From Lachnospiraceae bacterium (GTDB taxonomy: Bacteria > Bacillota_A > Clostridia > Lachnospirales > Lachnospiraceae): a stretch of 42,138 nt of DNA. The translations under genes and the position numbers were made by a program. Position 1 is the first letter of the stretch; every line of letters starts with the position of its first letter. Shown piece by piece: positions 3,330 through 39,657 of the stretch. Below the pieces are notes generated by a model. The model searched no databases. It was not told the DNA's origin and saw nothing but the letters and a program-made list of their open reading frames with translations. Location: NCBI GenBank assembly GCA_900764695.1, contig CAAFOY010000023.1:1-42138 (forward strand), given 5' to 3'.

Positions 3330-4751
3330 ATGACAAAGACAAAACAGCGTATTTATTTATTAATAGGACCATTATTATTTGTTTTATGTTGTTTAGCAAT
3401 ACCGGAGAGTGCATTTCCGGCTTTAGCTGAAAGAGCAGCAATAGGAACGGTTGCATGGATGGCATTTTGGTGGGTAACAGCGCCTATCGATTATGCAGTA
3501 ACAGCATTTTTACCAATAGCAATAAATGCTATTGTCACTATGTGCGATATGTCTGCAGTAATATCAAATTATGCATCTGAGACAATTTTATTATTACTTG
3601 GAGCATCAATATTGACTGTATCTTGGGAAGAAACAGGACTTGATAAAAGAATTGCAGCATCATTACTTGGATTAATTGGTGATAACTTAAGAATTCAGTT
3701 AATTTTCTGGTTTATGTTATCTACAGTATTATCTGCAATTTTACCAAATGCAGTAGTATGTGCAACAATTACACCTATTGCAGTTTCGATGTTAAAGTAC
3801 ATAGGTGAGGGTGATATTGAACATAGTAGAATTGGTTCAAAATTATTATTATACATAGCTTACGGTGCAGGACTTGGAGGATTGACATCACCACTTGGTG
3901 GAGCAATGAATCTTGTAACTGTTGATTATTTACAGCAGCTTACAGGAAAAGAATACATGTATATTTCATGGGTAATCCGTTTCTTACCAATTATGATTAC
4001 ATTACTTGTTATTAACATTGTTTTCATGATTAGGGATGTTAAAAAATCAGAAAGCCTTGGTGGATCAAAAGAATATTTTAGAAATGAATATAAAAAATTC
4101 CCACCAATGAGCATAGAAGAGAAGATTTCTCTTGGATTATTTGCAGTAGCAACAATACTTGCATTCACAAGACAGTTCTATCAGACATTATTACCAGGAT
4201 TAAAACCGGCATATGTATTTATTATTTGTGCAATTTTATCATTCTTAATAACACGTTCTGATGGAGAAAGACTTATGCTCTGGAAATCAGTTCAGACAAA
4301 AATTATTTGGGAAATGATTTACATTTTTGCAGGTGGTCTTGCAGTAGGAACATTAATAAATGAATCAGGTGCAGCAGAAAGGATTGGTGAATTGGTTTCA
4401 GGAATGGGACTTACAGGTGGAGTTACAACAGTATTTGTAATTATAACAGTAACTTTACTTATGTCTGATGTAACATCAAATACAGCAACTGCAGCAGTTG
4501 CAATACCTATAGTTATATCTATAGTAAAGGGAATGAATTTAAATCCAATACCTTACGTTTACATTGCATCAGTAGGAGTAAATTTATCTTATATGTTACC
4601 AACATCAATCAGAGCAATACCTGTTGGATATGGTTTACAGCCAAAGTATATGCTTAAAGAGGGTTGGAAAATGACAGTAATCATTATAATAGCAATGACA
4701 ATAGTATGCTCATTATTGTTAAAATATTGGCCGGCATTTAGTACAACGTAA
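3330..4751 (+). CDS. DASS/SLC13-family anion:sodium symporter-like protein
   Basis: A 473-residue membrane protein of the divalent anion:Na+ symporter family (SLC13, CitM/INDY-like), which normally carries di- or tricarboxylates or sulfate. The inverted-repeat fold is suggested by two matching regions: LPNAVVCATITPIAVSML (about residues 132-150) and SDVTSNTATAAVAIPIV (about 378-394). The second keeps the canonical Ser-Asn-Thr binding motif. The first reads Pro-Asn-Ala instead. A cytoplasmic loop with many charges lies around 232-265. The gene follows the ligase by 55 bp and is probably in the same operon, so it may import the acid that the ligase activates. Substrate is unassigned. Confidence 0.85.
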   Translation: MTKTKQRIYLLIGPLLFVLCCLAIPESAFPALAERAAIGTVAWMAFWWVTAPIDYAVTAFLPIAINAIVTMCDMSAVISNYASETILLLLGASILTVSWEETGLDKRIAASLLGLIGDNLRIQLIFWFMLSTVLSAILPNAVVCATITPIAVSMLKYIGEGDIEHSRIGSKLLLYIAYGAGLGGLTSPLGGAMNLVTVDYLQQLTGKEYMYISWVIRFLPIMITLLVINIVFMIRDVKKSESLGGSKEYFRNEYKKFPPMSIEEKISLGLFAVATILAFTRQFYQTLLPGLKPAYVFIICAILSFLITRSDGERLMLWKSVQTKIIWEMIYIFAGGLAVGTLINESGAAERIGELVSGMGLTGGVTTVFVIITVTLLMSDVTSNTATAAVAIPIVISIVKGMNLNPIPYVYIASVGVNLSYMLPTSIRAIPVGYGLQPKYMLKEGWKMTVIIIIAMTIVCSLLLKYWPAFSTT

Positions 4752-4773
4752 ATATTTACAGATTAACTTAAGA

Positions 4774-4834
4774 TGGAAACTAAATTAATGAAGTTTATAT
4801 TTAATAATGTTTCCAATAACTAGTCGCCGACTAG
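4774..4834 (+). other. Two hairpins in the leader of the SGNH gene
   Basis: TGGAAAC (4774-4780) can pair with GTTTCCA (4809-4815) around an AT-rich loop. CTAGTCGCCGACTAG (4820-4834) is a perfect 6-bp stem with a 3-base loop. Neither has a U-run. They lie between the transporter and the SGNH gene and may mark a processing or regulatory site. Confidence 0.4.
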
Positions 4835-4871
4835 ATAGAGAGGCAATACATGTTAGACGAGGAGCAACGAA

Positions 4872-6762: not shown

Positions 6763-6783
6763 TTAAGCAGAAATTAAATAAAA

Positions 6784-6934
6784 ATTCTTCGGGGCAGGGT
6801 GATATGCATAAAGCATAAATTCCCAACCGACGGTAAGTGTACAGAGCGTAAAGATGCACGAGTCCGTGACCTGCGAAAGCAGCTGATTTGGTGAGAATCC
6901 AAAACCGACAGTATAGTCTGGATGGGAGAAGAAT
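6784..6934 (+). ncRNA. FMN riboswitch (RFN element)
   Basis: The classic RFN core is present: GGGGCAGGGTG near the 5' end, CCCAACCGACGGT, GTCCGTGACC, a TTTGGTGAGAATCC segment, ACCGACAGT and the closing GTCTGGATGGGAGAAGAAT. P1 is a perfect 7-bp helix, ATTCTTC (6784-6790) with GAAGAAT (6928-6934). It precedes the four riboflavin biosynthesis genes and should turn them off when FMN is plentiful. The expression platform is about 180 bases further down (7113-7145), an unusually long spacer. Confidence 0.95.
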
Positions 6935-7112
6935 AGATAATGTAATTGTTCTTTATCAGGAATAAAATTAATCTGATTTTTAGAAATGTATTTAAATGAT
7001 ATGTAGTTTACATAACAATTAATCGGATTAAGATTTTGATAATAAATTACTAATAACCATACGCAATTAGGAATATGTAATGAACAGAATAATATACATT
7101 TGTATTTGTGCG
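6935..7112 (+). other. Long AT-rich spacer between FMN aptamer and terminator
   Basis: No gene is seen here. TAATTGTT (6943-6950) is a perfect inverted copy of AACAATTA (7014-7021), so a long-range stem could form directly after P1 and bring the aptamer closer to the terminator. A weaker ATCAG/CTGAT hairpin lies around 6955-6976. Confidence 0.4.
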
Positions 7113-7145
7113 AAAGCCCCTTTGAATGAAAGGAGGCTTTTTTTT
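7113..7145 (+). terminator. Riboswitch terminator that also holds the ribD ribosome binding site
   Basis: AAAGCCCCTTT (7113-7123) pairs with AAAGGAGGCTTT (7129-7140), with one bulged A and a 5-base loop, and the 3' arm runs into an eight-T tract (7138-7145). The same 3' arm contains AAAGGAGG, the Shine-Dalgarno sequence for the TTG start at 7144. The hairpin would therefore block ribD both as a terminator and by masking its SD. Confidence 0.75.
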
Positions 7146-8226
7146 GAACCCAAAATACATGAAAAGAGCTATTGAATTAGCAAAAAAAGGCATAGGTTAT
7201 ACAAATCCAAATCCTATTGTAGGATGTGTTGTGGTAAAAAATGATGAAATTATTTCGGAAGGCTATCATGAAAAGATAGGCGGATTTCATGCTGAGAGAA
7301 ATGCATTAACAAATTGTAAGGAGGATACAACAGGAGCAGAGCTTTATGTAACGCTTGAACCGTGTTGTCATTATGGAAAGACGCCACCATGTACTGAAAT
7401 TATCATAGAAAAAAACATAAAAAAAGTTTATGTGGGGAGTATGGATACTAATAAACTTGTAGCAGGAAAGGGAGTAAAAATTTTAGAAGAAAACGGAATT
7501 GAAGTTGAGTGCGGAGTATTAAAAGATGAATGTGACAAATTAAACGAAGTATTTTTTCATTATATTACAAATAAAACACCTTATGTTGTAATGAAATATG
7601 CGATGACGATGGATGGAAAAATAGCGTGTGAAAATGGTGATTCAAAATGGGTTACAGGTGAAAAGGCAAGAGAAACCGTTCAAAATATGCGAAAAAAGTA
7701 TATGGGAATAATGGTTGGAATTAATACTGTATTAGAAGATAATCCAATGTTAAATTGCAGAATAGAAGAAAATGTTAATCCAATAAGAATTATATGTGAT
7801 TCAAATTTAAGAATACCATTTGAAAGTAATATTGTTAATACTGCTAATAAGATACAAACAATAGTTGTTTGTACAAATGAGGCTGATACAGATAAACAAA
7901 AATATTTAGAAGAATGTGGGGTTGAAGTCGTAAGGCAGAAAAGGAAAGGAAGAGTTAATTTATCAGAACTTATGAAAACATTAGGTGAGAAAGGGATAGA
8001 CAGTATATTGCTTGAAGGTGGCGGAACACTTAATGCACAGGCACTAAAAGAAAACATTGTAAATAAAATCTGTTGCTTTATAGCACCAAAGATTGTAGGA
8101 GGTGCAAATGCAAAATCTCCAATTGAAGGAAAAGGTGTCGAAAAAATGATGGAAGCATATAACTTAAGAAATTTAGAAATACAAAAAATAGGAAATGATA
8201 TTATGTTAACCGGATATTTAAAATAA
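7144..8226 (+). CDS. ribD: Bifunctional pyrimidine deaminase/reductase
   Basis: Carries out two consecutive riboflavin steps: deamination of the diaminopyrimidinone riboside phosphate and reduction of its ribose. The N-terminal deaminase domain has HAERNAL with zinc ligand His49 and catalytic Glu51, and PCCHYGKTPPC with Cys74 and Cys83. The reductase domain runs from about residue 148 (KTPYVVMKYAMTMDGK) and has the LLEGGGTLN motif. I chose the TTG at 7144 (360 residues): AAAGGAGG lies 7 bases upstream, the protein then begins MNPKYMKRAIELA as in relatives, and zinc ligand numbering matches that of B. subtilis RibG. The in-frame ATG at 7126 lies in the terminator loop upstream of this SD and is unlikely. 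First gene of the FMN-controlled operon. Confidence 0.95.
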   Translation: MNPKYMKRAIELAKKGIGYTNPNPIVGCVVVKNDEIISEGYHEKIGGFHAERNALTNCKEDTTGAELYVTLEPCCHYGKTPPCTEIIIEKNIKKVYVGSMDTNKLVAGKGVKILEENGIEVECGVLKDECDKLNEVFFHYITNKTPYVVMKYAMTMDGKIACENGDSKWVTGEKARETVQNMRKKYMGIMVGINTVLEDNPMLNCRIEENVNPIRIICDSNLRIPFESNIVNTANKIQTIVVCTNEADTDKQKYLEECGVEVVRQKRKGRVNLSELMKTLGEKGIDSILLEGGGTLNAQALKENIVNKICCFIAPKIVGGANAKSPIEGKGVEKMMEAYNLRNLEIQKIGNDIMLTGYLK

Positions 8227-8254
8227 AGGAAAGAAGTCTAAAAGAAATATCAGA

Positions 8255-8301
8255 GGAAAGGAGATATACGTATTTTATAAAATACATAAAAATAGTAAAT
8301 G
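8255..8301 (+). promoter_or_regulatory. Displaced ribosome binding site with palindrome before ribE
   Basis: The only good SD, GAAAGGAGAT (8255-8264), is about 35 bases from the ribE ATG. Between them lies a perfect 16-base palindrome, GTATTTTATAAAATAC (8270-8285). An in-frame TAA sits directly before the ATG, so no earlier start exists. Folding of the palindrome could shorten the effective spacing. Confidence 0.5.
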
Positions 8302-8949
8302 TTTACAGGAATTATAGAGGAAACAGGTCAGATAGAATATGTTAACAGCAATAGTGAGAAATATCAGATTGGAATTAAATGTGAAAAGGTTTTAGAAAAA
8401 ACAGTAGTTGGAGACAGCATAGCAGTTAACGGCATTTGCCTTACAGTCACAAAAATGTGGAAAAATGGATTTGAAGCGGATGTGATGTCAGAAACGTTAA
8501 AAAGAACCGGTTTAAATGGAAGCAAAAAAGGTACATGTGTAAATCTTGAAAGAGCTATGGCAGCAGATGGACGATTTGGAGGACACATCGTTAGTGGTCA
8601 TATAGATGGAACAGGGATAATAGGAAGTATACGTGAAGATAAAAATGCAGTATGGTATGAGATATTTGCAGATGATGAAATTATAAAATATGTGGTTGAA
8701 AAAGGATCAATATCAATTGATGGAATAAGTCTTACAGTCGCTTATGTTGATAAAAAAGGATTTAAAGTATCCACAATACCACACACAAGGATAAGCACAA
8801 ATTTAAAATACAGAAATGTTGGAGATACAGTAAATCTTGAGTGTGACATTATAGGAAAATATGTAGAAAAGTTATTGAATTTTTCTAACAATAATGAGCA
8901 AAAGAAGTCAAAAATTACAGAAAGCTATTTGATAGAAAATGGATTTTAA
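8299..8949 (+). CDS. ribE: Riboflavin synthase alpha subunit
   Basis: Joins two molecules of 6,7-dimethyl-8-ribityllumazine to give riboflavin and the pyrimidine precursor. The 216-residue protein shows the family's internal duplication. The first half begins MFTGIIEETGQI and has VNGICLTV; the second half begins about residue 97 with GGHIVSGHIDGTG and has IDGISLTV. The length is normal. Within the operon, ribD ends 72 bp upstream and ribBA begins 18 bp downstream. The start is fixed by a stop codon immediately upstream. Confidence 0.95.
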   Translation: MFTGIIEETGQIEYVNSNSEKYQIGIKCEKVLEKTVVGDSIAVNGICLTVTKMWKNGFEADVMSETLKRTGLNGSKKGTCVNLERAMAADGRFGGHIVSGHIDGTGIIGSIREDKNAVWYEIFADDEIIKYVVEKGSISIDGISLTVAYVDKKGFKVSTIPHTRISTNLKYRNVGDTVNLECDIIGKYVEKLLNFSNNNEQKKSKITESYLIENGF

Positions 8950-8967
8950 AGAAAGAAGGAATATAAA

Positions 8968-10170
8968 ATGAGTAAAACAATAGGAACAATAGAAGAAGCA
9001 ATTAAGGATATAAAAGAAGGAAAAGTTATTTTAGTAATAGATGATCCTGATAGAGAAAATGAGGGGGATTTGGTATGTGCAGCAGAATTTGCAACAACTG
9101 AAAATGTAAATTTTATGGCAAGTTATGCAAAAGGACTTATTTGCATGCCTATGGAAGAAGAACTTTGTGAAAAACTTGATTTGGAACAAATGGTAAAAGT
9201 AAATACTGATAATCATTGTACAGCGTTTACCGTTTCGATTGACCATGTATCAACCACGACAGGAATATCAGCGGTTGAAAGAGGTATTACGGCAAGAGCA
9301 ATTGTAGATGATAATGCAAAACCTGAAGATTTTAGAAGACCGGGCCATATGTTTCCACTTAAAGCAAAAAAAGCAGGAGTATTAGAAAGAACAGGTCATA
9401 CAGAAGCTACAGTTGACATTGTAAAATTAGCAGGACATAAACCTTGTGGATTATGCTGTGAAATAATGAGAGAAGATGGAACAATGATGAGAACAACAGA
9501 ACTTCTTGAATTTGCACAGGAACATAATCTTACGGTAATTACAATTGCTGATTTGGTTAAATACAGAATGGAAAGAGACAGTTCAGTAAAAAGAGAAGCA
9601 GTTGCAAAGATGCCAACGAAATATGGAAATTTTAATATCGTGGGTTATCAAAATAAAACAACAGGGGAACATCATGTTGCATTAACTATGGGAGATGTAG
9701 GAAATGGAGAGCCTGTTCTTTGCAGAGTACATTCGGAATGTCTTACAGGAGATGTATTTGGTTCTAAAAGATGCGATTGTGGACAACAGCTTGAGAAAGC
9801 AATGGAGATGGTTGCAAAAGAGGGAAGAGGAATAATACTTTACTTAAGACAGGAAGGAAGAGGAATAGGATTAATAAATAAACTTAAGGCATATGAGCTT
9901 CAGGAACAGGGACTAGATACAGTAGATGCAAATCTAAAACTAGGATTTCCGGCAGATATGAGAAGCTATGGAATGGGAGCACAGATTTTGGCAGACCTTG
10001 GAGCAAAAAAACTAAGAATTATGACAAATAATCCGGCAAAAATTACAGGCTTGTCAGGATATGGAATAGAAATAGTTGAAAGAGTTCCGATACAGATAGA
10101 AGCACAAAAATATGATGAATATTATTTGAGAACAAAGCAGTTAAGAATGGCACATATGACAACTTACTAA
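8968..10170 (+). CDS. ribBA: Bifunctional DHBP synthase / GTP cyclohydrolase II
   Basis: Supplies both starting units for riboflavin: 3,4-dihydroxy-2-butanone 4-phosphate from ribulose 5-phosphate and the diaminopyrimidine from GTP. The N-terminal RibB half (about 1-200) has the acidic [12 protein letters not shown] motif and [13 protein letters not shown]. The C-terminal RibA half (about 201-400) has the zinc site HSECLTGD with KRCDCG, and RQEGRGIGL. Both halves keep their key residues. The 400-residue length is standard for the fusion. It follows ribE by 18 bp, with GAAAGAAGGA as binding site. The gene after it, ribH, is set off by a long hairpin region. Confidence 0.96.
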
Positions 10171-10184
10171 GATTATTTGCTGAA

Positions 10185-10356
10185 CCCGATTTCTTAAATT
10201 TAACGAAATAACGCTCGCGCTGCTTGTCGCTCGTAGCGGTTCTAAAGTTTTAGCACACAGCCTGACTTTGTAACTTACAGTTTCAAGTCAGGCTATGCAC
10301 CAAAGCTTTGAACCGACGGCCACAAATGCTATTTCTTTTAAATTTAAGAAATCTGG
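10185..10356 (+). other. Long nested hairpin element A in the ribBA-ribH gap
   Basis: The gap contains a near-continuous fold about 170 bases long. The outer stem is a perfect 16 bp: GATTTCTTAAATTTAA (10188-10203) with 10338-10353. Next, GAAATA (10205-10210) pairs with TATTTC (10330-10335). CGGTTC-T-AAAG (10237-10247) pairs with CTTTGAACCG (10306-10315). The inner stem AGCCTGACTT (10259-10268) pairs perfectly with 10285-10294. It is more GC-rich than its surroundings and encodes no protein. It may be an attenuator, a processing site or a small mobile element that settled in the rib operon. Confidence 0.6.
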
Positions 10357-10458
10357 TATAAGCAATTTAGTGTTAAGTGTAATAATGTCAGAACTTATAA
10401 TTTAAACCATACTTAAAAAAACTGACATCAAAATATATTATACAAGAGGAGATTTAAA

Positions 10459-10920
10459 ATGAGAACTTTAGAAGGAAAATTAGTAGCAGAAGGATTAAAA
10501 ATTGGTATTGTAGCAGCAAGATTTAATGAGTTTATTGTAAATAAACTTGTAAGCGGTGCAGAAGATGCATGCGTGCGACATGGAGTTAATGATGACGATA
10601 TTACATTAGCGTGGGTTCCGGGTGCATTTGAAATTCCTATAGTAGCAAAGAAAATGGCTCAGTCAGGAAAATATGATGCCATTTTATGCTTAGGAGCAGT
10701 AATTAAAGGCTCGACAGATCATTATGATTATGTATGTGCAGAGGTAAGCAAAGGAATTGCAATGGTAGGAATGGAAACAGGAGTGCCTACAATGTTTGGA
10801 GTATTAACAACAGACAACATTGAACAGGCAATAGAAAGAGCAGGAACAAAAGCAGGAAATAAAGGATTTGATGTTGCATGCTCAGCAATTGAAATGGCAA
10901 ATTTAAATCGCATGCTATAA
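10459..10920 (+). CDS. ribH: 6,7-dimethyl-8-ribityllumazine synthase
   Basis: Condenses the pyrimidine from the RibD branch with dihydroxybutanone phosphate from RibBA to form lumazine, the substrate of RibE. The 153 residues match the family in length. Motifs include VAARFNEFI near the N-terminus, WVPGAFEIP, and [14 protein letters not shown] with the catalytic histidine. AGAGGAG precedes the ATG. It is the last riboflavin gene but is separated from ribBA by 288 bp holding hairpin A. An AT-rich stretch with a possible TATAAT (10396-10401) but a poor -35 leaves open a separate promoter. Confidence 0.96.
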
Positions 10921-10989
10921 ATTATGTAATTATTATGTCTGACTTGCGTAAAATATAATAATTCATTTAATAATAAAAGGAAAAATTAA

Positions 10990-11634
10990 GTGCTAAATTA
11001 TATTTGGGCAGGAATGATTATATTGTCAGTGCTTTATGGAATGGCAACAGGCAGGATGGAACAGGTAGGAAATGGAGCAATAGAATCCACAAAAGAGGCT
11101 GTGAGTATGTGCATTACAATGCTTGGAATTATGAGCATGTGGATGGGATTTATGAACGTGGCTTCTAAAAGTGGAATGATAAAAAAACTGGAAAAAATAC
11201 TTGAACCGATTATTATGTGGCTGTTTCCGGGTCTGCCTCATAACCATAATGCAAGAGAACCGATAGTAACTAATATAATTGCAAATATATTAGGCTTGGG
11301 ATGGGCGGCAACACCGGCAGGACTAAAAGCAATGGAGGCATTAGCAGAAAATCCATTAGAACAGAGTGGATACGTATTAAGTGAAAATAAATCAGAGATA
11401 AAGAGGCAAAGAAAAAGAAAGTGTACATTTCCAAAGCATATTGCAACTGATGAAATGTGCACTTTTTTAGTATTAAATATTTCTTCACTTCAAATTATTC
11501 CTGTAAACATTATTGCGTATAGAAGCCAATATGGTGCAGTAAATCCGTCAGCAGTTGTGCTTCCGGCAATTATTGCAACAAGTTTCAGCACAGGAGCAGG
11601 GATATTGTGGTGTAAAATAATGAGTAGAGAGTAA
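10990..11634 (+). CDS. SpmA-like Gate-domain membrane protein
   Basis: A 214-residue membrane protein resembling spore maturation protein A, of the nucleoside-recognition Gate family. Diagnostic stretches are MEQVGNGAIESTKEAVSMC, WMGFMNVASKSGM, FPGLPHNHNAREPIVTNI and NILGLGWAATPAGLKAM. It starts with GTG after AAGGA. In spore formers SpmA works with SpmB, normally encoded next to it. Here the SpmB-like gene is about 8 kb away at 19593. The molecular function is not known; transport of a small solute is a guess. It lies 69 bp after ribH. Confidence 0.8.
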   Translation: MLNYIWAGMIILSVLYGMATGRMEQVGNGAIESTKEAVSMCITMLGIMSMWMGFMNVASKSGMIKKLEKILEPIIMWLFPGLPHNHNAREPIVTNIIANILGLGWAATPAGLKAMEALAENPLEQSGYVLSENKSEIKRQRKRKCTFPKHIATDEMCTFLVLNISSLQIIPVNIIAYRSQYGAVNPSAVVLPAIIATSFSTGAGILWCKIMSRE

Positions 11635-11678
11635 TGTCAATCGTTTGACATAACTAATTGATTATTATAAAATTAGTT
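11635..11678 (+). other. Paired small stem-loops ahead of the DUF4430/ECF operon
   Basis: TGTCAA (11635-11640) pairs with TTGACA (11645-11650), and AACTAATT (11652-11659) pairs perfectly with AATTAGTT (11671-11678). They fill the 71-bp gap between the SpmA-like gene and the DUF4430 gene. There is no U-run and no room for a cobalamin riboswitch. Confidence 0.4.
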
Positions 11679-11705
11679 GATTAATTATACATGGAGGAAA
11701 TGACA

Positions 11706-12902
11706 ATGAGAAATACAGTAAAAAAAGCAATGGCGATAGCAATTGCAGTCTCAATGACAACAAGTATTGCAACAGTAGGTTATAACAAGATTCAGGCACA
11801 GGAAACAAATAAAACAGTAACTTTTTCAGTAGAAAAGTTTACAATTGGACAGGGTTATGTAGTTGAGCCTGTAAGCGTTGAAGTTAGTGACGATATGACA
11901 ATATCTGATGTATTTGAGAAAGTAATGAATGAAAAAGAGATTAAATATACAGGTTCAAAAAACTATGGATATTTATATTTGCAAAGCATAGAGAATGCTG
12001 ATACAGGAATTATTGACATACCGGAAGAAATAGCAAAAATGCCTTCTTATGAAAGTTCATATGAGTATGAAGGAGAAACTTATACAACATCATATTCAGC
12101 TCCGTCAAATGAAAAAAATGATGGTAATACACAGCCAAACAATGGTTTAGGAGAATATTCATATAATAGTATGGCTGGATGGATGATTTCTGTAAACGGA
12201 GATAATGATAATGGAAATCTTACACCGGCAGATATTGTAAAAGATGGTGATGTAATCAGATATCAGTTTTCAGTATATGGATGGGGAGCAGATGTTGGAT
12301 TAAGCAATTATGCAGGAATGGAACCATTAAAGGTTGCCGATAAAACAACTCTGACAAAAGAATTAGCAAAAATTAATGGAAATAAAGCATTATGGATGAA
12401 TAATGAAAATGTTAAAATTGCGTATAAAAATGCAATTAAAGTTGCAACAAAATTGATGGCAACTCAGGATGAAGTTGATGAGGTGATTGCAGAATTAAAG
12501 AAAGCTGAAAACGAAACAACTACAGCACAGGATGCAACAACAGTACAACCTACGACAACAATTCAGCCTACAACAGCAGAAACAACAGTGCAGGCTACAA
12601 CAACAGAAATACAGACATTAGGAAAAGCAACTGTAAACTCAGTAAAGAAAGTAAAAGCAGGAAAAGCAAAAATTTCAATTAAGAAAATTGCAGGTGCAGA
12701 AGGATATCAGTACAAATACTCTTCAACAAAGAATTTCAAAAAAGGAACAGTAATTGTAAAGACTACTAAAAAGAATGTTTTAATAACAAAGAAATTTAAG
12801 AAAAATCAGAAATGCTACGTTAAAGTAAGAGCTTACAAAACAGTAAATAAAGTAAGGGTTTATGGAAAATGGAGCAAAGTTAAATCAGTAAAAATTAAGT
12901 AA
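11706..12902 (+). CDS. Secreted DUF4430 (transcobalamin-beta-like) protein with Fn3-like tail
   Basis: A 398-residue exported protein. Start at 11706 is chosen because GGAGGA lies 7 bases upstream; the in-frame ATGs at 11691 and 11700 precede or directly follow that site. Residues 1-30 are a signal peptide. About 35-200 form a DUF4430-type domain, recognisable by ISDVFEKVM, the SMAGWMISVNGD segment and KDGDVIRYQFSVYGWG. This domain resembles the C-terminal beta domain of transcobalamin and intrinsic factor. A helical stretch and a Thr/Gln-rich linker (about 270-305) follow, then a Lys-rich Fn3-like module. It opens an operon with a toroid protein, a second DUF4430 protein and an ECF transporter, so it is probably a surface ligand-binding protein. 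Corrinoid as ligand is inference. Confidence 0.8.
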   Translation: MRNTVKKAMAIAIAVSMTTSIATVGYNKIQAQETNKTVTFSVEKFTIGQGYVVEPVSVEVSDDMTISDVFEKVMNEKEIKYTGSKNYGYLYLQSIENADTGIIDIPEEIAKMPSYESSYEYEGETYTTSYSAPSNEKNDGNTQPNNGLGEYSYNSMAGWMISVNGDNDNGNLTPADIVKDGDVIRYQFSVYGWGADVGLSNYAGMEPLKVADKTTLTKELAKINGNKALWMNNENVKIAYKNAIKVATKLMATQDEVDEVIAELKKAENETTTAQDATTVQPTTTIQPTTAETTVQATTTEIQTLGKATVNSVKKVKAGKAKISIKKIAGAEGYQYKYSSTKNFKKGTVIVKTTKKNVLITKKFKKNQKCYVKVRAYKTVNKVRVYGKWSKVKSVKIK

Positions 12903-12932
12903 TAAATATTTATATTAAACAAGAGGAAACAC

Positions 12933-14441
12933 ATGAAAAAATTATTAGCAACAATTGCAATATTCTTTATGTGTGTCTCAACTTCAGTTATGGGAAGTCA
13001 GACACCGTCAAAGGATGATATAGAAAACACAATAAATAAAATTTCATATTATCAGATGAATACGGTAAAGAATCCGACGTATGGAAGCGTAGGCGGAGAA
13101 TGGACGGTGTTTGGACTTGCCAGATGTGGAAATATTAATGATGAATATATAGAAAAATATGTAAGCAATGTATCAAAAGCAGTTACAGAGAACAAAGGAA
13201 TTTTATCAACAAGAAAATATACTGAATATGCAAGAACAATTATTGCATTAACTGCAATTCAAAAAAATCCTCAGAATTTTTCAGGATATAATTTATTGCA
13301 ACCTCTCGCAACATTTGAAAATATAATGATACAAGGTGTAAATGGAGCTGCTTACACACTTATGGCTTTTGATTGTGGCAATTATGAAATTCCGGACGCA
13401 ACGACAGGAAAACAGACAACAAGAAATAAGTTAATTGATTTCTTAGTAAAACAACAACTGAACAATGGCGGATGGAATTATATGGGAACAGAAGCAGATG
13501 TTGATGTGACTGCCATGGTTATTCAGGCACTTGCTCCATACTATAATGAAAAACAAAATGTAAAAGAAAGCATTGATAAAGGACTTGCAATTCTTAGCAC
13601 TTTACAGAAATCTGATGGTGCATATGGAAATACAAGTGACTCAAACTGTGAAAGTACAGCACAGGTTTTAACTGCATTATCTGAAATGAGAATAAAAATT
13701 GATGATAGCAGATTTGTGAAAAACGGCAAAACCGTATATGACGGTTTAATGACATTTTATAAAGATAATGGTGCTTTTTGCCATACGAAGGGAAAAGGCG
13801 CAAATCAAATGTCTACAGACCAGGCAATGTATGCAATAACAGCTTATTACAGAAGTATATCAGGAATGAACAGACTCTATGATATGAGTGATGGAATTAT
13901 TAAAATAGAAAATACAAAGGTAGAAACAACTAAGGCAGATAATAAAGAAGAAATAAAAAGTAGTGCGTCTGATAAAAATAAGAATGATGCAAATAACAAC
14001 GATAAAAACAATTCTACAAGTAAGAACACAAAAAAGAATGCATTATCAAATTCAAAAAATAATAGTAAATCAAATGGAAATACGTTAAATAATAGCGATG
14101 ATACCGACAATAGAGAAAATAATGAATCTAAGAATAGAAAAGATAACAATGTAGAAACGGAAGAAAATACTAATACTACAGATAACTTAGAAAATGCTAC
14201 AGATGTTTTAGAAAATAATGATGAAGAAAATAAGATAGCTACAGACAATAATAAAGAAGAAACAGAAAATAAAAATTCAGTTAATAATAAAGAAAATGTT
14301 ACTAAAGAAACAAAACACAAAAATAGAAGACCTTATATTATACTTATTTTTGGAATATGTTGTGGTATAGCCGGGAAATTTGGATTTGATGTTTATAAAT
14401 ATAAGAAGAAAAGAGTGACAAATAAAGATGAACAAAACTAA
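12933..14441 (+). CDS. Membrane-anchored alpha/alpha-toroid (prenyltransferase/squalene-oxidase repeat) protein
   Basis: A 502-residue surface protein. Residues 1-22 form a signal peptide. About 30-310 contain repeats of the prenyltransferase/terpene-cyclase type, for example QQLNNGGWNYMG and LQKSDGAYGNTSDSNCESTA, the fold that also forms the alpha6/alpha6 barrel of intrinsic factor and transcobalamin. About 325-460 is a low-complexity stalk rich in Asn, Lys, Glu, Asp and Thr. A single membrane helix (about 468-486, YIILIFGICCGIAGKFGF) and a short basic tail anchor it. It is translated just upstream of, and overlaps by 14 bp, a DUF4430 lipoprotein gene. An enzymatic cyclase role is unlikely outside the cell; ligand binding for the ECF transporter is the better guess. 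Confidence 0.8.
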   Translation: MKKLLATIAIFFMCVSTSVMGSQTPSKDDIENTINKISYYQMNTVKNPTYGSVGGEWTVFGLARCGNINDEYIEKYVSNVSKAVTENKGILSTRKYTEYARTIIALTAIQKNPQNFSGYNLLQPLATFENIMIQGVNGAAYTLMAFDCGNYEIPDATTGKQTTRNKLIDFLVKQQLNNGGWNYMGTEADVDVTAMVIQALAPYYNEKQNVKESIDKGLAILSTLQKSDGAYGNTSDSNCESTAQVLTALSEMRIKIDDSRFVKNGKTVYDGLMTFYKDNGAFCHTKGKGANQMSTDQAMYAITAYYRSISGMNRLYDMSDGIIKIENTKVETTKADNKEEIKSSASDKNKNDANNNDKNNSTSKNTKKNALSNSKNNSKSNGNTLNNSDDTDNRENNESKNRKDNNVETEENTNTTDNLENATDVLENNDEENKIATDNNKEETENKNSVNNKENVTKETKHKNRRPYIILIFGICCGIAGKFGFDVYKYKKKRVTNKDEQN

Positions 14442-14931
14442 TTTGAGAAAATTAAGCATATGTATAATTACAATACTTATGACATTTTCCTTGTGGGGCT
14501 GTGGAAATAGTAAAAGTGTAAAATCTGAAAAGGCAACACAAAAATGTACTTTGTATGTGACTTGTATAAATGCAATAAATAGTAACAAATTACAGGATAA
14601 TATACGAAAAGCACAACCAAAAGATGGCGTGATATATGAGACAAAGGAAGTTAAATTTACAGAAGGGGAATCCTGCTTTGATATTTTAGAGAGAGAATTG
14701 AAAAATGAAGGAATACTGATTGAAAGTAGCATAACGCCGGCAACAAAAAGCGTATATATAGAAGGAATTAATAATTTATACGAATTTGACTGTGGAAAAC
14801 AGTCAGGTTGGATGTATACTGTAAATGGAGATGTACCAAATGTAAGTTGCAGTGAGTACAAGATTAAAGAAAATGATGAAATAAAATTTCAATATACATG
14901 TAATTTAGGAGAGGATATAGAAAAGAAATGA
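14428..14931 (+). CDS. DUF4430 lipoprotein (transcobalamin-beta-like)
   Basis: A 167-residue predicted lipoprotein. The signal peptide ends in SLWGC, giving lipidated Cys25. The rest is nearly a single DUF4430 domain: ESCFDILERELKNEG, then the hallmark SGWMYTVNGD and IKENDEIKFQYTCNLG. The gene overlaps the toroid gene by 14 bp and the EcfT gene by 4 bp (ATGA), so translation is coupled. In intrinsic factor and transcobalamin the alpha toroid and beta domain clamp cobalamin between them. Here the two parts are on separate proteins encoded side by side, which suggests they assemble on the outer face of the membrane next to the ECF transporter. Confidence 0.85.
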   Translation: MNKTNLRKLSICIITILMTFSLWGCGNSKSVKSEKATQKCTLYVTCINAINSNKLQDNIRKAQPKDGVIYETKEVKFTEGESCFDILERELKNEGILIESSITPATKSVYIEGINNLYEFDCGKQSGWMYTVNGDVPNVSCSEYKIKENDEIKFQYTCNLGEDIEKK

Positions 14932-15824
14932 GAGAAGAATTCGGAAGATTTCACCCGGTAGTAAATATATTATTTTACGCATTTATATTGGGAATTACTA
15001 TGTTTGTGAATCATCCGATTATGATATTCATTTCTTTTTTATTTGCCACGGTTTATTTTGTAATTGTATACAAAAACAAAAAAATAAAAAAGTTAACAGG
15101 GTTATTAGGCTTGTTTATTTTTGCAGGGCTGATAAACCCTCTTTTTTCTCATAGAGGAATGACGGTGCTATTCTTTTTGCCAACAGGAAATGCAGTCACT
15201 TTGGAATCTATTATATATGGAATGTTTGCAGCAGGAATTTTAGTTACGGTAATGATTTGGATTTTTACATTTCAAAAAATAGTAACGGAAGATAAAATTA
15301 TAGCTGTATTTGGGAAGATAGTACCTACGCTTGCTTTAATTTTTTCAATGGTATTAAAATTTGTACCGGCATTTGTGGCTCATGCAAAAGAAACTTCGGA
15401 TGTAAATAGAGTTATGGCAATTGCAAATGGAAGTGATATTAACAAAATGAATTTTATTCGAAAAGTAAAAATGCAGGTGAAAAATTTCTCAATTACAGCA
15501 ACATGGGCATTGGAAAATTCAGTGGATACGGCTGATTCGATGGCATCAAGAGGCTACGGAGTAAAGAGAAGGACAAATTTTAATAATTATAAATTAACAT
15601 TAAGGGACATAATCGCCTTGATATGGATTATATTTTTGGGCGGAATTGTAGTTTTAGGGTGTATATTTGGATGTGTCAAAACACACTACTATCCGATGTT
15701 CTATATAGAAGAAAATAAGTACGCAACGTTGGTTTACATAACATATTCAGCACTTTGCGCAACACCAATTTTAATAAATATTATGGAGGAGATAAGATGG
15801 CTCAGATTGAAATCAAAAATTTAA
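14928..15824 (+). CDS. ECF transporter transmembrane subunit (EcfT)
   Basis: A 298-residue membrane subunit of an energy-coupling-factor importer. It has several hydrophobic helices in residues 12-135, a coupling region about 140-215 and a last helix pair near 225-290. The coupling helix carries SMASRGYG, the Ala-Arg-Gly-type motif with which EcfT contacts the ATPases. Its start overlaps the stop of the DUF4430 lipoprotein gene, and its end overlaps the ATPase gene by 28 bp. The linkage to a fused ATPase and an S component makes this a dedicated (group I-like) ECF system. Confidence 0.88.
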   Translation: MREEFGRFHPVVNILFYAFILGITMFVNHPIMIFISFLFATVYFVIVYKNKKIKKLTGLLGLFIFAGLINPLFSHRGMTVLFFLPTGNAVTLESIIYGMFAAGILVTVMIWIFTFQKIVTEDKIIAVFGKIVPTLALIFSMVLKFVPAFVAHAKETSDVNRVMAIANGSDINKMNFIRKVKMQVKNFSITATWALENSVDTADSMASRGYGVKRRTNFNNYKLTLRDIIALIWIIFLGGIVVLGCIFGCVKTHYYPMFYIEENKYATLVYITYSALCATPILINIMEEIRWLRLKSKI

Positions 15825-17422
15825 CATTTAAATATGCTATGGCAGATTCTTCATGTTTAAAAAATGTTTCATTAAATATAGAAAATGGTGATTTTGTTGT
15901 TGTATGTGGAAAATCAGGCTGTGGAAAGACGACATTGCTCAGATGTTTAAAAAGTGTACTTACTCCAAATGGAGACAAAGCTGGGGAAGTCTTATTTGAA
16001 AATAAAAAAATTGAAGAAGTTGATGAAAGAACTCAGGCAATGAAAATTGGATTTGTAATGCAGAATCCTCAACAGCAGATTGTAACGGACAAAGTATGGC
16101 ATGAGCTTGCATTTGGTTTGGAAAACATGGGAATGGCAAGAGAAGAAATAGGGGCAAGAATTGGCGAGACAGCAGAATATTTTGGAATAGCAAAATTATA
16201 TGAAAGGACGACAAACAGCCTTTCAGGCGGACAAAAACAGTTACTTAATCTGGCGGCAGTTATGACAATGCAGCCTAAAGTAATAATTTTAGACGAACCT
16301 ACAGCTCAGTTAGACCCTATAGCGGCAGAAAAATTTATTCAGATGTTACATAAAATAAATGATGAACTTGGAACTACGGTTATTATTTCTGAACATAGAT
16401 TAGACCAGTTGTTACCTGTTTGCAGTAAAGCCGTAGTTATGAAAAATGGAGAAATTTTAGCTGATGACAATAGTTATAAAGTCGCAGATAAACTTTATAA
16501 TACAGAAGAATTTCAATTTATGCCCATACCGGCTCAAATTTATAAAGAGATTGGAGAATTATCTGAAAATATTCCACTTACAGTAGGTCAGGGAAGAAAA
16601 TGGATTGAGAATTATGTAAACCAAAATCAGATAATAAAAGAAAATATAGCAAAACAAAATAGATTAATCAACTTAGAGTATGAGAATAAAGATAAAAATA
16701 AATCTGCGAAAGACATTGCAATCAGTGGAAAAAACATATGGTTCAGATATGAACGTGATAGAGCAGATATAATTAAGGGGATTAGTGTTAATATAGAAAA
16801 TGAGCAGATTTACTGCATATTAGGAGGAAACGGTGCAGGAAAATCAACATTAATCAAAATATTGTGTGGAATATTGAAGCAATATAGAGGAAAAGTAAAA
16901 ATAAATGGCAAAATTGTGTACATGCCACAGAATGTCCAGACAATGTTCCTTCATGACACGGTTATAGATGAGGTTGATGGAAATAAAGATATTTTAACAA
17001 AACTAAATCTGGATAAATATGAAAAAACACATCCATATGATTTGAGTGGAGGCGAGCAGCAAAAGCTTGCAATGGCAAAGGTGTTGTTGTGTAATCCTGA
17101 TATTTTACTTTTAGATGAACCAACAAAAGGAATTGATGTAATTTATAAAAAAGAAATGGGAAAAATAATTCTTGATTTAAAAAAACAGGGAAAGACGATT
17201 GTAATAGTAAGTCATGACGTGGAATTTTGTGCAGAATATGGAGACAGATGTGCTATGTTTTTCCAAGGAAAAATTATTTCAGAAAGCAGTATAAGAGAAA
17301 TGATTTGCACAAACAGATTTTACACAACAGTTTCTCATAAAATGGCAGGAGAATTAATTGAAAAAGCAATTACAAAGGAGGAAGTAGTATGGTCAATGAC
17401 AGCCGGTTCTATTACGGAGTAG
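15797..17422 (+). CDS. Fused double ATPase of ECF transporter (EcfA-EcfA')
   Basis: A 541-residue protein with two ABC ATPase domains, powering uptake through EcfT. Domain 1 (about 1-235) has Walker A GKSGCGKTT, signature LSGGQKQ and Walker B VIILDEPTAQLDP. Domain 2 (about 310-530) has GGNGAGKSTLIK, LSGGEQQK and ILLLDEPTKGID. Both keep the catalytic glutamate and switch histidine (SEHR and SHDVE). Start at 15797 is chosen for the TGGAGGAG 6-13 bases upstream and the usual MAQIEIKNLTF beginning; an open frame extends further up but lacks an SD. The 34-bp overlap with the S-component gene implies translational coupling. Confidence 0.92.
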   Translation: MAQIEIKNLTFKYAMADSSCLKNVSLNIENGDFVVVCGKSGCGKTTLLRCLKSVLTPNGDKAGEVLFENKKIEEVDERTQAMKIGFVMQNPQQQIVTDKVWHELAFGLENMGMAREEIGARIGETAEYFGIAKLYERTTNSLSGGQKQLLNLAAVMTMQPKVIILDEPTAQLDPIAAEKFIQMLHKINDELGTTVIISEHRLDQLLPVCSKAVVMKNGEILADDNSYKVADKLYNTEEFQFMPIPAQIYKEIGELSENIPLTVGQGRKWIENYVNQNQIIKENIAKQNRLINLEYENKDKNKSAKDIAISGKNIWFRYERDRADIIKGISVNIENEQIYCILGGNGAGKSTLIKILCGILKQYRGKVKINGKIVYMPQNVQTMFLHDTVIDEVDGNKDILTKLNLDKYEKTHPYDLSGGEQQKLAMAKVLLCNPDILLLDEPTKGIDVIYKKEMGKIILDLKKQGKTIVIVSHDVEFCAEYGDRCAMFFQGKIISESSIREMICTNRFYTTVSHKMAGELIEKAITKEEVVWSMTAGSITE

Positions 17423-18030
17423 GTTTATTAATTATACTTATTTCATTTGTTGTATTTGCGTTAGGATTTGAAAAAAGAAAACCGAGGGCAAGAGAAATAG
17501 TAATGCTTGTGTGCATGATTAGTTTTGCAGTTATCGGAAGAGTTATTTTTTACATGACTCCACAGGTAAAACCTTGCGCTGCAATTATAATTATTACAGG
17601 AATTGCATTAGGTAAGAAGGCAGGATTTTTAACAGGAGCTATGACGGCATTTGTGTCAAATTTTTTTATGGGTCAGGGTCCCTGGACACCATGGCAAATG
17701 GTAGCCTTTGGACTTTTAGGATATATTTTTGGGATTGCATACAGTAAAAGGAATGTGGGAAGTTATATTCCTAAGAAGCAAAAAAATTTTATTTGTTTTA
17801 TGGGGATGCTTGCAACAATAGTTGTTTATGGTGTTATTATGGATACGGCAACAGTGCTTATGTCTACAGACAGTCCAAGTGTTCAGGCTTTTATAACAGC
17901 TTATACTGCAGGATTTATTATGAATGTAATACATGGTATATCAACTTTTATATTTTTATGGTTTATGTTAATTCCGATGCTAAAAAAGATTGATAGAGTT
18001 AACATTAAATACGGAATGTATGTAAAATAA
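17389..18030 (+). CDS. ECF transporter substrate-binding S component
   Basis: A 213-residue membrane protein with about six helices, typical of S components that bind the vitamin and toggle in the membrane. Characteristic stretches include PQVKPCAAIIIITGIALGKKAGFL split over two helices and a conserved FFMGQGPWTPWQM loop. It has an excellent SD (AAAGGAGG) and overlaps the ATPase gene by 34 bp. The family with this GQGPWTPWQM loop includes S components proposed to carry cobalamin or its precursors, which agrees with the DUF4430 and toroid genes upstream. The substrate is not proven by the sequence. It closes the operon. Confidence 0.82.
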   Translation: MVNDSRFYYGVGLLIILISFVVFALGFEKRKPRAREIVMLVCMISFAVIGRVIFYMTPQVKPCAAIIIITGIALGKKAGFLTGAMTAFVSNFFMGQGPWTPWQMVAFGLLGYIFGIAYSKRNVGSYIPKKQKNFICFMGMLATIVVYGVIMDTATVLMSTDSPSVQAFITAYTAGFIMNVIHGISTFIFLWFMLIPMLKKIDRVNIKYGMYVK

Positions 18031-18093
18031 GTAGCAAAAAGTATTTATAAAAAACGAGTAAAAATAACACAAAAACAAGTAAAATAAATATGA

Positions 18094-18121
18094 TTGACAT
18101 TTGTAAACAAAGTGTTAAAAT
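18094..18121 (+). promoter_or_regulatory. Promoter before the antiporter gene
   Basis: TTGACA (18094-18099) and TAAAAT (18116-18121) are spaced by 16 bp. The predicted start of transcription is near 18128, at the foot of the following hairpin. Confidence 0.6.
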
Positions 18122-18127
18122 AAACGT

Positions 18128-18171
18128 GGTGCGAAGATGTACATAGTGATACTTCGCACTATATTTTTGTT
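18128..18171 (+). terminator. Terminator-like hairpin at the 5' end of the antiporter transcript
   Basis: GTGCGAAG (18129-18136) pairs with CTTCGCAC (18152-18159), followed by a T-rich tract. It can end the ECF operon transcript. Because the promoter at 18094-18121 lies just before it, it would also form the first structure of the antiporter mRNA. Confidence 0.65.
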
Positions 18172-18209
18172 TCGTATACAAGAAACTAATGAGAAAAGAG
18201 GTAGGAAAA

Positions 18210-19475
18210 ATGGATTACAAATTTCTTTTAGACATAGCTATTATTTTAGCTAGTACAAAGATTCTCGGTCTCTTCACAAAGAAAGTTAATATGCCACAGG
18301 TTGTTGGTGCTCTTTTGGCGGGTGTTATTTTAGGACCTGCATGTGTAGGAGTGTTAACAGAAACAGACATGATACAGAATATGGCAGAATTAGGCGTAAT
18401 TGTTCTTATGTTCTGTGCAGGTATGGAAACTGACATTGAAGAACTTAAACGAAGTGGAAAAGCTTCATTTGTAATAGCACTCTTAGGTGTTATAGTTCCT
18501 TTAGTTGTTGGTGGTGGTGTTGCATATTTATTCATTAATAATGGATATATTGATACATCAGATGTTACAAGTTCAGTATTTTTACAGTCAGTATTTATTG
18601 GTGTAATTTTAACAGCAACTTCTGTAAGTATTACAGTTGAAACTTTAAAAGAATTAGGTAAATTAAAAACTAAATCAGGAAATGCAATTCTTGGAGCTGC
18701 CATTATCGATGATATTTTAGGTATCATAGCTCTTACAATTGTAACAAGCTTAGCTGACACATCAGTAAATATTGCAGTTGTTTTATTTAAGATAGTATTA
18801 TTCTTCGTATTTTGCGGAGTTGTCGGAGTTATTGTTTATTATGCATTTAAGAAATGGTGTGAAATTAGTGGTAAAGGAATGCACAGACATGCAATTATTG
18901 CATTCGTTATCTGCCTTGTAATGGCATTTTGTGCAGAACATTTCTTTGGAGTTGCAGATATTACAGGTGCATTCTTCGCAGGCTTAATTATATCAATGAC
19001 TCAGAAAGATCAGTTCATCGCATCAAAATTTGATGTATTATCATATTTGCTTTTAAGCCCAATTTTCTTTGCAAGTATCGGTCTTAAGGTTGAACTTCCA
19101 AAGATGGGACCTGCAATCATTGCATTTGCAGCAGTAATAACAATAGTTGCATTGTTAACAAAGATTATCGGTTGTGGACTTGGCGCAAAGGTTTGCGGAT
19201 ACAAGAATTATCAGGCACTTAGAATTGGTGTTGGTATGATTTCAAGAGGTGAAGTTGCCTTAATCGTAGCCAGCAAAGGTGCAGCAGTAGGTCTTATGAG
19301 TAACAATATTATGGGACCAATTATTATAGTCGTTGTTATTACAACAATCATTACACCTATTTTATTAAAACCTGTATTCAATAAGGAAATTATCCCTATT
19401 GAAGGAGAAGTATCACTTGCAGATAATTACAAGAAGATTGATGAATACAGAACAGGTGAAAAACAGGATAATTAA
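18210..19475 (+). CDS. CPA2-family cation:proton antiporter
   Basis: A 421-residue membrane protein with about 12-13 helices, of the Na+(K+)/H+ exchanger family (KefB/NapA-like). The transport site is visible as an Asp pair in GAAIIDDILGIIAL, usual for electrogenic exchangers. An early FTKKVNMPQVVGALLAG segment and the late GVGMISRGEVALIVASKG stretch are also diagnostic. There is no C-terminal RCK/TrkA domain. I chose the ATG at 18210 because AGAGGTAGG precedes it closely; the in-frame ATG at 18189 would add seven residues across that site. It has its own promoter. It probably manages pH or sodium and has no clear tie to the neighbouring operon. Confidence 0.9.
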   Translation: MDYKFLLDIAIILASTKILGLFTKKVNMPQVVGALLAGVILGPACVGVLTETDMIQNMAELGVIVLMFCAGMETDIEELKRSGKASFVIALLGVIVPLVVGGGVAYLFINNGYIDTSDVTSSVFLQSVFIGVILTATSVSITVETLKELGKLKTKSGNAILGAAIIDDILGIIALTIVTSLADTSVNIAVVLFKIVLFFVFCGVVGVIVYYAFKKWCEISGKGMHRHAIIAFVICLVMAFCAEHFFGVADITGAFFAGLIISMTQKDQFIASKFDVLSYLLLSPIFFASIGLKVELPKMGPAIIAFAAVITIVALLTKIIGCGLGAKVCGYKNYQALRIGVGMISRGEVALIVASKGAAVGLMSNNIMGPIIIVVVITTIITPILLKPVFNKEIIPIEGEVSLADNYKKIDEYRTGEKQDN

Positions 19476-19592: not shown

Positions 19593-20114
19593 GTGAATAT
19601 TGCAACATTGTCTAATTACATAATTCCCATTTTAATATTAATAATAGTTTTATATGGATTAAAGAAAAAAACGAAAGTGTACATTGATTTTGTAGATGGG
19701 GCAAAAGATGGATTTGCGACAGTAATAAAAGTTATGCCGACTTTAATAGGGTTAATGGTGGCGGTAGGAATGCTTAGAGAGTCAGGAGCAATGGACTTTT
19801 GTGGCAAACAGATTGGAAAAGTAACAAAATATATTGGATTTCCGGGAGAGTTAGTGCCGTTAAATATAGTAAAAATATTTTCGTCTTCGGCAGCAACAGG
19901 AATGCTTCTTGATGTTTATAAAAAATATGGAGTAGATTCATATATTGCAAATGTAGCTTCAATCATATTGAGTAGTACAGAAACGGTTTTTTACACGATG
20001 TCGGTTTATTTTATGACTGCAAAGGTAACAAAGACAAGATGGACTCTTCCAGGAGCATTATTTGCCACTCTTGCCGGAACAATTGCAAGTGTAATGGTAG
20101 CTAAATTAATGTAG
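19593..20114 (+). CDS. SpmB-like Gate-domain membrane protein
   Basis: A 173-residue membrane protein resembling spore maturation protein B. It shows KVYIDFVDGAKDGFATVIK, MPTLIGLMVAVGMLRESG, FSSSAATGMLLDVY and SSTETVFYTMSVYF, all typical of that family. It starts at GTG with a weak GGCAGG site upstream. Its usual partner, the SpmA-like gene, is at 10990, so the pair is split by the ECF operon and the antiporter. The protein belongs to the nucleoside-recognition Gate group; its transported molecule, if any, is unknown. Confidence 0.82.
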   Translation: MNIATLSNYIIPILILIIVLYGLKKKTKVYIDFVDGAKDGFATVIKVMPTLIGLMVAVGMLRESGAMDFCGKQIGKVTKYIGFPGELVPLNIVKIFSSSAATGMLLDVYKKYGVDSYIANVASIILSSTETVFYTMSVYFMTAKVTKTRWTLPGALFATLAGTIASVMVAKLM

Positions 20115-39613: not shown

Positions 39614-39657
39614 AAAGTTGTTAATTATGAAATTACAATCTTGTGGGAGGTAATTCT

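Follow-up and report, generated by a model that had tools for sequence, protein, structure and literature searches.

What an importer is meant to carry when its operon also encodes two surface proteins resembling the halves of a vitamin-binding clamp is the question raised by a locus of Lachnospiraceae bacterium (GCA_900764695.1, contig CAAFOY010000023.1, positions 1 to 42,138; the whole stretch of 42,138 nucleotides (nt) is referred to as the window). Six open reading frames (ORFs), all on the + strand, encode a secreted protein, an alpha/alpha toroid protein, a DUF4430 lipoprotein, EcfT, a fused EcfA-EcfA' ATPase and the S component of an energy-coupling factor (ECF) transporter. The operon was read as a corrinoid (vitamin B12 / cobinamide-type) scavenging system consisting of a surface clamp and a dedicated ECF importer, and we consider this reading highly probable. 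It was built on the computed domains, the gene order, the kinship of the S component, the riboswitch association of orthologues, the fused forms and the structure of a fused relative. The corrinoid direction had been proposed in an earlier note on this DNA, and is now supported by three independent lines: the kinship of the S component to CbrT, the cobalamin riboswitches before orthologous operons, and the resemblance in structure between a fused relative and transcobalamin or intrinsic factor. Among the computed results, none was of the kind that the earlier note had named as contrary to it.

The tight spacing described in the earlier note was confirmed for all six ORFs, and the last four gene junctions overlap by 14, 4, 28 and 34 nt. 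For comparison, one genome per species was scanned with the S component and the best 80 loci were kept (not an exhaustive set), with record titles that include Clostridia, Oscillospiraceae, Lachnospiraceae, Peptococcaceae and Paenibacillus. Within ≤12 kb upstream of S, EcfA was found at 75 and EcfT at 72 of these loci (many contigs are cut), DUF4430 at 61 and the toroid at 46 (each >100 bits), and at 7 loci toroid and DUF4430 lay within a single ORF. Where S ended at 9 kb or later (n = 51 loci), DUF4430 was present in 46/51, toroid plus DUF4430 in 38/51 and neither in 5/51. As EcfA, EcfT, DUF4430 and toroid recur upstream of S in the best 80 loci, the gene order is beyond chance. Two S loci came from records titled Bacteroidales (metagenome-assembled genome, MAG; L055) and Nitrososphaerota archaeon (MAG; L069); the title of L055 looks wrong, because its genome (G028) was placed in the same family as G001, one of the two nearest genomes found for the window. 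At five Paenibacillus/Lutispora loci (L026, L048, L054, L076, L079), giant ORFs of 1635-2133 codons stop to stop lie upstream of S, each with several toroid and DUF4430 matches (two are cut by the locus end). They may represent a multivalent version of this capture apparatus.

The importer was identified from its ATPase and S component. Two ABC (ATP-binding cassette) ATPase stretches were found in one protein, which scored 322.6 bits with the ECF ATPase model TIGR04520 (NCBIfam, cut-off 315), so that the fused EcfA-EcfA' of the earlier note stood. EcfT stood by position and by orthologues: no Pfam or NCBIfam family was matched over cut-off, and identity to the EcfT-position genes of two syntenic loci (L001 and L096, described below) was 43-45%. 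Its ASRGYG motif was taken to be an EcfT mark. As in group I ECF transporters, the S component is encoded with EcfT and EcfA genes of its own. The S component matched PF07155, and its nearest solved relative was CbrT. Searched as a single sequence against PDB chains, it found CbrT (6fnp) at E 4.6e-8; at E≤0.01, the profile of 29 sequences gave just two matches, CbrT (6fnp, E 2.2e-14) and the much weaker 4hzu (E 0.0021). Entry 6FNP is the B12 transporter ECF-CbrT (PMC5997447). Kinship to CbrT therefore exceeds that to other S components of known structure, and the window protein keeps the columns that are invariant in the 29-sequence alignment, which includes it. We propose from these sequence relations that it is the corrinoid-binding membrane subunit.

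The control of related operons points the same way. In 45/80 genomes, a cobalamin riboswitch over the Rfam cut-off was found on the strand of the S gene and ≤15 kb upstream of it (0.53 expected by uniform placement). A second set consisted of 39 of the 42 S-bearing genomes among 397 genomes of the family of G001 (G001, G004 and G028 were counted in the first set), and a cobalamin riboswitch was near S in 21/39. These counts are lower bounds, since filter settings differed between searches, being stricter in one of them, and first-look candidates were partly scored in many genomes; five matches under the Rfam cut-off were left out in the first set. The control was the flavin mononucleotide (FMN) riboswitch, which was found within ≤15 kb of S on either strand in 0/38 genomes (37 of the 80, plus G360), and 25 of the same 38 had a cobalamin riboswitch near S. 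Where a first-set genome had exactly one cobalamin riboswitch over cut-off (n = 29), it stood at the S operon in 17; of the remaining 12, 6 had it before a toroid/DUF4430 ORF elsewhere. For the second set (n = 16), the single riboswitch was at S in 12. An Rfam gathering scan of loci L081-L095 (15 loci, 52,837 bases together) returned nothing, which is no evidence either way, as these loci were too short to reach far upstream.

Two loci were syntenic with the window. At L001 (uncultured Eubacterium), the S component is 51-52% identical to that of the window, and the flanks are common to both: a Gate-domain gene before the operon, and Na/H-exchanger-type, second Gate and PfkB genes after it. The Gate-domain genes are called here spmA-like (first) and spmB-like (second). 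In L001, 270 nt separate the first Gate gene from the gene of the secreted DUF4430-family protein, and they hold a cobalamin riboswitch (4282-4481, 54.8 bits) directly before the first gene of the operon. No second cobalamin riboswitch was found in this genome. L001 encodes toroid and DUF4430 in a single protein. At L096 (genome G360), S is 54-55% identical to the window S, toroid and lipoprotein are split as in the window, and the locus is without the secreted DUF4430-family gene. In G360, a single cobalamin riboswitch was found, and it lies before the gene of a 2169-residue protein with toroid and DUF4430 matches. As the syntenic L001 carries a riboswitch where the window has a short gap with a promoter-like site, the simplest reading of these sequences is that the lineage of the window lost the riboswitch here.

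The proposed clamp halves were examined by domain, alignment and fusion. DUF4430 (PF14478) was found in the lipoprotein at 69.4 bits (Pfam cut-off 23.8), and the toroid matched PF13243 (E 3.6e-5) and PF00432 (E 4.4e-5), both just under the curated cut-offs; with the lipobox and the transmembrane anchor seen by eye, the membrane-anchored toroid and DUF4430 lipoprotein of the earlier note were upheld. Toroid relatives numbered 5014 at E≤0.001 among 5.8 billion proteins searched, and PF14478 was in the same chain in 30 of the 120 listed. The aligned fused forms run through toroid, charged linker, hydrophobic segment, basic residues, lipobox-like segment and DUF4430. We infer that the fused form corresponds to the two window genes run together, with both domains outside and tied by a membrane hairpin. 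As the fused relatives match both window genes joined, they are strong evidence, at the level of sequence, that the toroid and the lipoprotein would work as a pair. The toroid protein is accordingly proposed as the alpha half and the DUF4430 lipoprotein as the beta half of a corrinoid clamp. D191-x-T-A is kept in the toroid, and position 192 is V, M or I in 27/27 aligned members, so that DxDD, the acid motif of type II terpene cyclases, is intact in 0/27. Cys239 and His284 are invariant (27/27) and are candidates for a cobalt contact or a structural role. PDB sequence searches with the lipoprotein and with the single toroid sequence gave no meaningful match; the toroid profile (A3) found squalene cyclases and related enzymes, weakly alpha-2-macroglobulin and others, and no transcobalamin. 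Two relatives, P0010 and P0127, look chimeric, part being near-identical to the window protein and the rest like another relative; they are probably metagenome assembly artefacts.

A structure model was made for a fused toroid-DUF4430 relative (P0039), which is 51% identical to the window toroid. Mean predicted local distance difference test (pLDDT) was 74.5 and predicted template modelling score (pTM) 0.57, with the toroid mostly >90 (pLDDT). In a Foldseek search of the PDB, ranks 1-15 were all transcobalamin, haptocorrin or intrinsic factor (E 3e-9 to 1.6e-6); rank 37 was 5no0, a transcobalamin beta domain on its own (template modelling score 0.71 by target). The structural comparison suggested in the earlier note was thus borne out for the domains of this fused relative, but did not extend to their orientation: in the model the domains match the transcobalamin type, but the closed arrangement around a ligand is not reproduced.

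The first gene was the least direct case. The mechanical ORF starts at 11691; the start was placed at ATG 11706, because GGAGGAA precedes it and the relative P0242 begins at the same residue. No Pfam match was obtained for the window protein alone at E≤0.1. PF14478 was present in 29/34 members of the alignment of the secreted protein (A4), with the window protein among the five without, so that its description as a secreted DUF4430 protein held by way of relatives and not by a match of its own. FIVAR was found in 2 and fn3 in 3 of the 34 members. One relative of the first protein, P0249 at 96% identity, is listed as 'hypothetical protein [Eubacterium sp.]', which makes an uncultured Eubacterium-like species the probable host. 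A PDB sequence search gave no meaningful match. In the structure model of the secreted protein the C-terminal domain is fn3-like, and the 50 structure matches listed were fn3-type and related. From its domains and relatives, we propose a secreted or auxiliary corrinoid binder.

From these features the ligand, the formation of a clamp between separate proteins, the hand-over, the role of the secreted protein and the B12 needs of the host may be read as follows. The C-terminally anchored toroid would supply the alpha half, and the DUF4430 lipoprotein the beta half, of a clamp like that of intrinsic factor and transcobalamin, on the external side of the membrane. The secreted DUF4430-family protein would help to catch corrinoid further out, the clamp would pass it to the CbrT-like S component, and import would be powered by EcfT and the fused EcfA-EcfA' ATPase. 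In a cell without corrin-ring synthesis of its own, the imported corrinoid would then supply MetH and similar enzymes. Within this scheme, that two separately anchored proteins close over the corrinoid like intrinsic factor and hand it to the S component is an evenly balanced proposition. Corrin-ring synthesis was judged by a single marker, CbiC, which was not found in G001 or G360. Both genomes encode MetH-like proteins (808 residues in G001, 827 in G360) with homocysteine methyltransferase, pterin-binding and B12-binding domains. As a B12-binding domain was present in 38/38 genomes and CbiC in only 9/38, the gene content of most of these hosts suggests that they use corrinoids without making the ring.

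Several results weigh against the corrinoid reading. No cobalamin riboswitch was found in the window, at the gathering score or at E≤10 over 10900-18300, nor at the L096 locus of G360. A hidden copy in the window was rejected on the cmscan at E≤10, in which the six weak matches over 10900-18300 were all to other families. The gap before the operon is 56 nt to the mechanical ORF start and 71 nt to ATG 11706. No cobalamin riboswitch was near S in 35/80 and 18/39 genomes of the two sets, where some contigs end nearby, and in 6/12 of the single-riboswitch genomes set apart above no toroid/DUF4430 match followed the riboswitch, some of these regions being short contigs. The nine genomes with CbiC run counter to the co-occurrence with absent B12 synthesis that the earlier note had put forward, which agreed with G001 and G360. 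On the structural side, the match is that of the fused relative P0039, and its whole-chain root mean square deviation was 13.5-17.1 Å against the first 15 matches (the model is ligand-free and single-chain). In VIA-align, terpene cyclases and sugar epimerases gave the best alignments to the toroid alone, which is unsurprising for so common a fold, and no transcobalamin was among the 50 entries listed; because most of these cover residues 28-319 (the toroid), the DUF4430 part was barely tested by them. No transcobalamin (beta domain) was among the 50 structure matches listed for the secreted-protein model, so its DUF4430 domain was not probed by structure.

Four other explanations were considered. 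The cargo may be a corrinoid relative rather than complete cobalamin (cobinamide, other cobamides, a lower-ligand base or cobalt), which we think unlikely: cobalamin riboswitches also control cobalt and precursor transporters (PMC3766115, PMC11477304) and CbrT itself transports cobinamide (PMC5997447), but toroid plus DUF4430 is the build of proteins that enclose the complete cobalamin, and would be superfluous for a cobalt or base transporter. Less probable still is that the operon was re-purposed for another tetrapyrrole or an unrelated ligand after riboswitch loss in this lineage. The riboswitch is absent in the window and at the G360 locus, and an ECF heme importer is known (PMC7299338). 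However, the window S component keeps the invariant columns and resembles that of the riboswitch-led L001 orthologue at the identity given above, and the single riboswitch found in G360 stands before another toroid/DUF4430 gene.

A riboflavin/flavin importer is suggested by the family name of PF07155 (riboflavin S component, 46.6 bits), by NF010182 (31.4 bits for the S component, against a cut-off of 99) and by location, since a rib cluster led by an FMN riboswitch (ribD, ribE, ribBA, ribH) lies upstream, its ribH 0.8 kb from the operon. We regard it as very improbable. Among S components of known structure CbrT is the nearest, the FMN riboswitch was near S in none of the 38 control genomes as against the 45/80 with a cobalamin riboswitch, and the ORFs before the spmA-like gene in L001 and L096 are unlike the rib genes of the window; the riboflavin importer was rejected on the FMN control and the kinship to CbrT. 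That the toroid is a terpene cyclase, as the NCBI name of its relative P0113 has it ('terpene cyclase/mutase family protein'), is ruled out for practical purposes by the missing DxDD motif, and the signal peptide and anchor (by eye) and the fusion or adjacency of the toroid to DUF4430 and an importer also speak against it.

The corrinoid scavenging reading was then compared with known systems. Animal intrinsic factor, transcobalamin and haptocorrin are single soluble chains taken up by receptors, whereas the window has two separate anchored proteins beside an ABC-type importer; the likeness, seen via the fused P0039, lies in the pairing of an alpha/alpha toroid with a beta-grasp domain. The module that serves CbrT is a shared one (group II), whereas the module of the window is encoded alongside the S component and its ATPases are fused. 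The binder and permease of BtuF-BtuCD have folds unrelated to those of this system. ECF-CbrT of Lactobacillus delbrueckii (6FNP) shares a related S sequence and an ECF energising module, and 'toroid' and 'DUF' are absent from the main text of its description (PMC5997447). BtuF-BtuCD shares the principle of an external corrinoid capture protein and an ATP-driven importer (PMC5997447). The closest precedent is a prediction: SLBB, toroid and CbiO/CbiQ were proposed to scavenge B12 in Gram-positives by Burroughs, Balaji, Iyer and Aravind in 2007 (PMC1796856), so that the concept is already in print. The predicted operons have SLBB (transcobalamin C-terminal type) with or beside a toroid, often a second SLBB paralogue, and CbiO/CbiQ-like genes, and their hosts are usually without B12 synthesis enzymes (PMC1796856). 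The same parts were found in the window: a DUF4430-type beta-grasp, an adjacent toroid, a CbiO-like ATPase, and EcfT by position and orthologues. The words riboswitch, energy-coupling, S component and lipoprotein are absent from the main text of the 2007 paper (PMC1796856). Beyond that prediction, the present analysis finds the S component to be CbrT-like, gives riboswitch counts together with a control, and describes a syntenic orthologue that bears the riboswitch, the alternation of fused and split forms at one locus, and a riboswitch-less member. In the searches made of open-access literature, no experimental test of such an operon was found.

In ECF transporters the membrane S component is itself the substrate-binding protein (PMC5997447). 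Because substrate binding is ascribed to the S component, a two-piece external clamp feeding it would be a new mode, and, if true, would make a bacterial forerunner of intrinsic factor directly testable. Animal transcobalamin-like proteins were proposed in 2007 to descend from a bacterial toroid plus beta-domain form (PMC1796856), of which this operon family would be a living version. A 2019 paper described it as an open problem to identify the systems by which B12 is transported in many human gut genomes (PMC6593275); with its CbrT-like S component and, in many genomes, a leading cobalamin riboswitch, the family is a concrete candidate. In the split, riboswitch-less member, the family names attached to the proteins either mislead or say nothing (terpene cyclase, DUF4430, riboflavin S component).

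Table 1. Positions of the operon genes and of the sequence features in the gap before them (window coordinates).
Feature	Position	Strand	Description
Secreted protein	11706..12902	+	Signal peptide, DUF4430-type beta-grasp, FIVAR-like helical segment, Thr-rich linker, C-terminal fn3-like domain
Toroid protein	12933..14441	+	Signal peptide, alpha/alpha toroid ~25-320, charged Asn/Lys-rich linker, C-terminal transmembrane anchor (by eye)
DUF4430 lipoprotein	14428..14931	+	Lipobox LWGC (by eye), DUF4430 / transcobalamin C-terminal-like beta-grasp domain
EcfT-like transmembrane coupling protein	14928..15824	+	Position, ASRGYG motif, identity to orthologues
Fused EcfA-EcfA' ATPase	15797..17422	+	Two ABC domains in one protein (Pfam)
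S component, CbrT-like	17389..18030	+	PF07155 46.6 bits; CbrT match in PDB sequences
Sigma-70-like promoter TTGACA-17-TAAAAT, 11 of 12	11645..11673	+	Where L001 has the cobalamin riboswitch
Perfect 8-bp inverted repeat AACTAATT/AATTAGTT	11652..11678	+	Across the promoter; chance possible in AT-rich DNA

Promoter-like sites numbered 45 in the window against 49.6 expected in shuffles, and position is the sole support for the site listed in Table 1. The inverted repeat across it is a possible operator. The Gate-domain genes, at 10990-11634 and 19593-20114, bracket the ECF operon and the Na/H exchanger-type gene, and the same arrangement is seen in L001 and L096. Upstream, an FMN riboswitch (6781-6937) followed by ribD, ribE, ribBA and ribH occupies 6781-10920, and this cluster ends just upstream of the spmA-like gene; its position looks like a rearrangement, because other genes precede the spmA-like gene in L001 and L096. 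The intergenic stretch before ribH (10170-10458) is palindromic-looking and more GC-rich than its surroundings (by eye), and may be a repeat element. At 4768-4854, upstream of the gene of a DUF4886/Big_2 protein, a GA-cis RNA was matched with 42.9 bits (cut-off 34.7). The stretch 38225-41064 encodes two BspA-type leucine-rich repeat proteins (PF13306) side by side.

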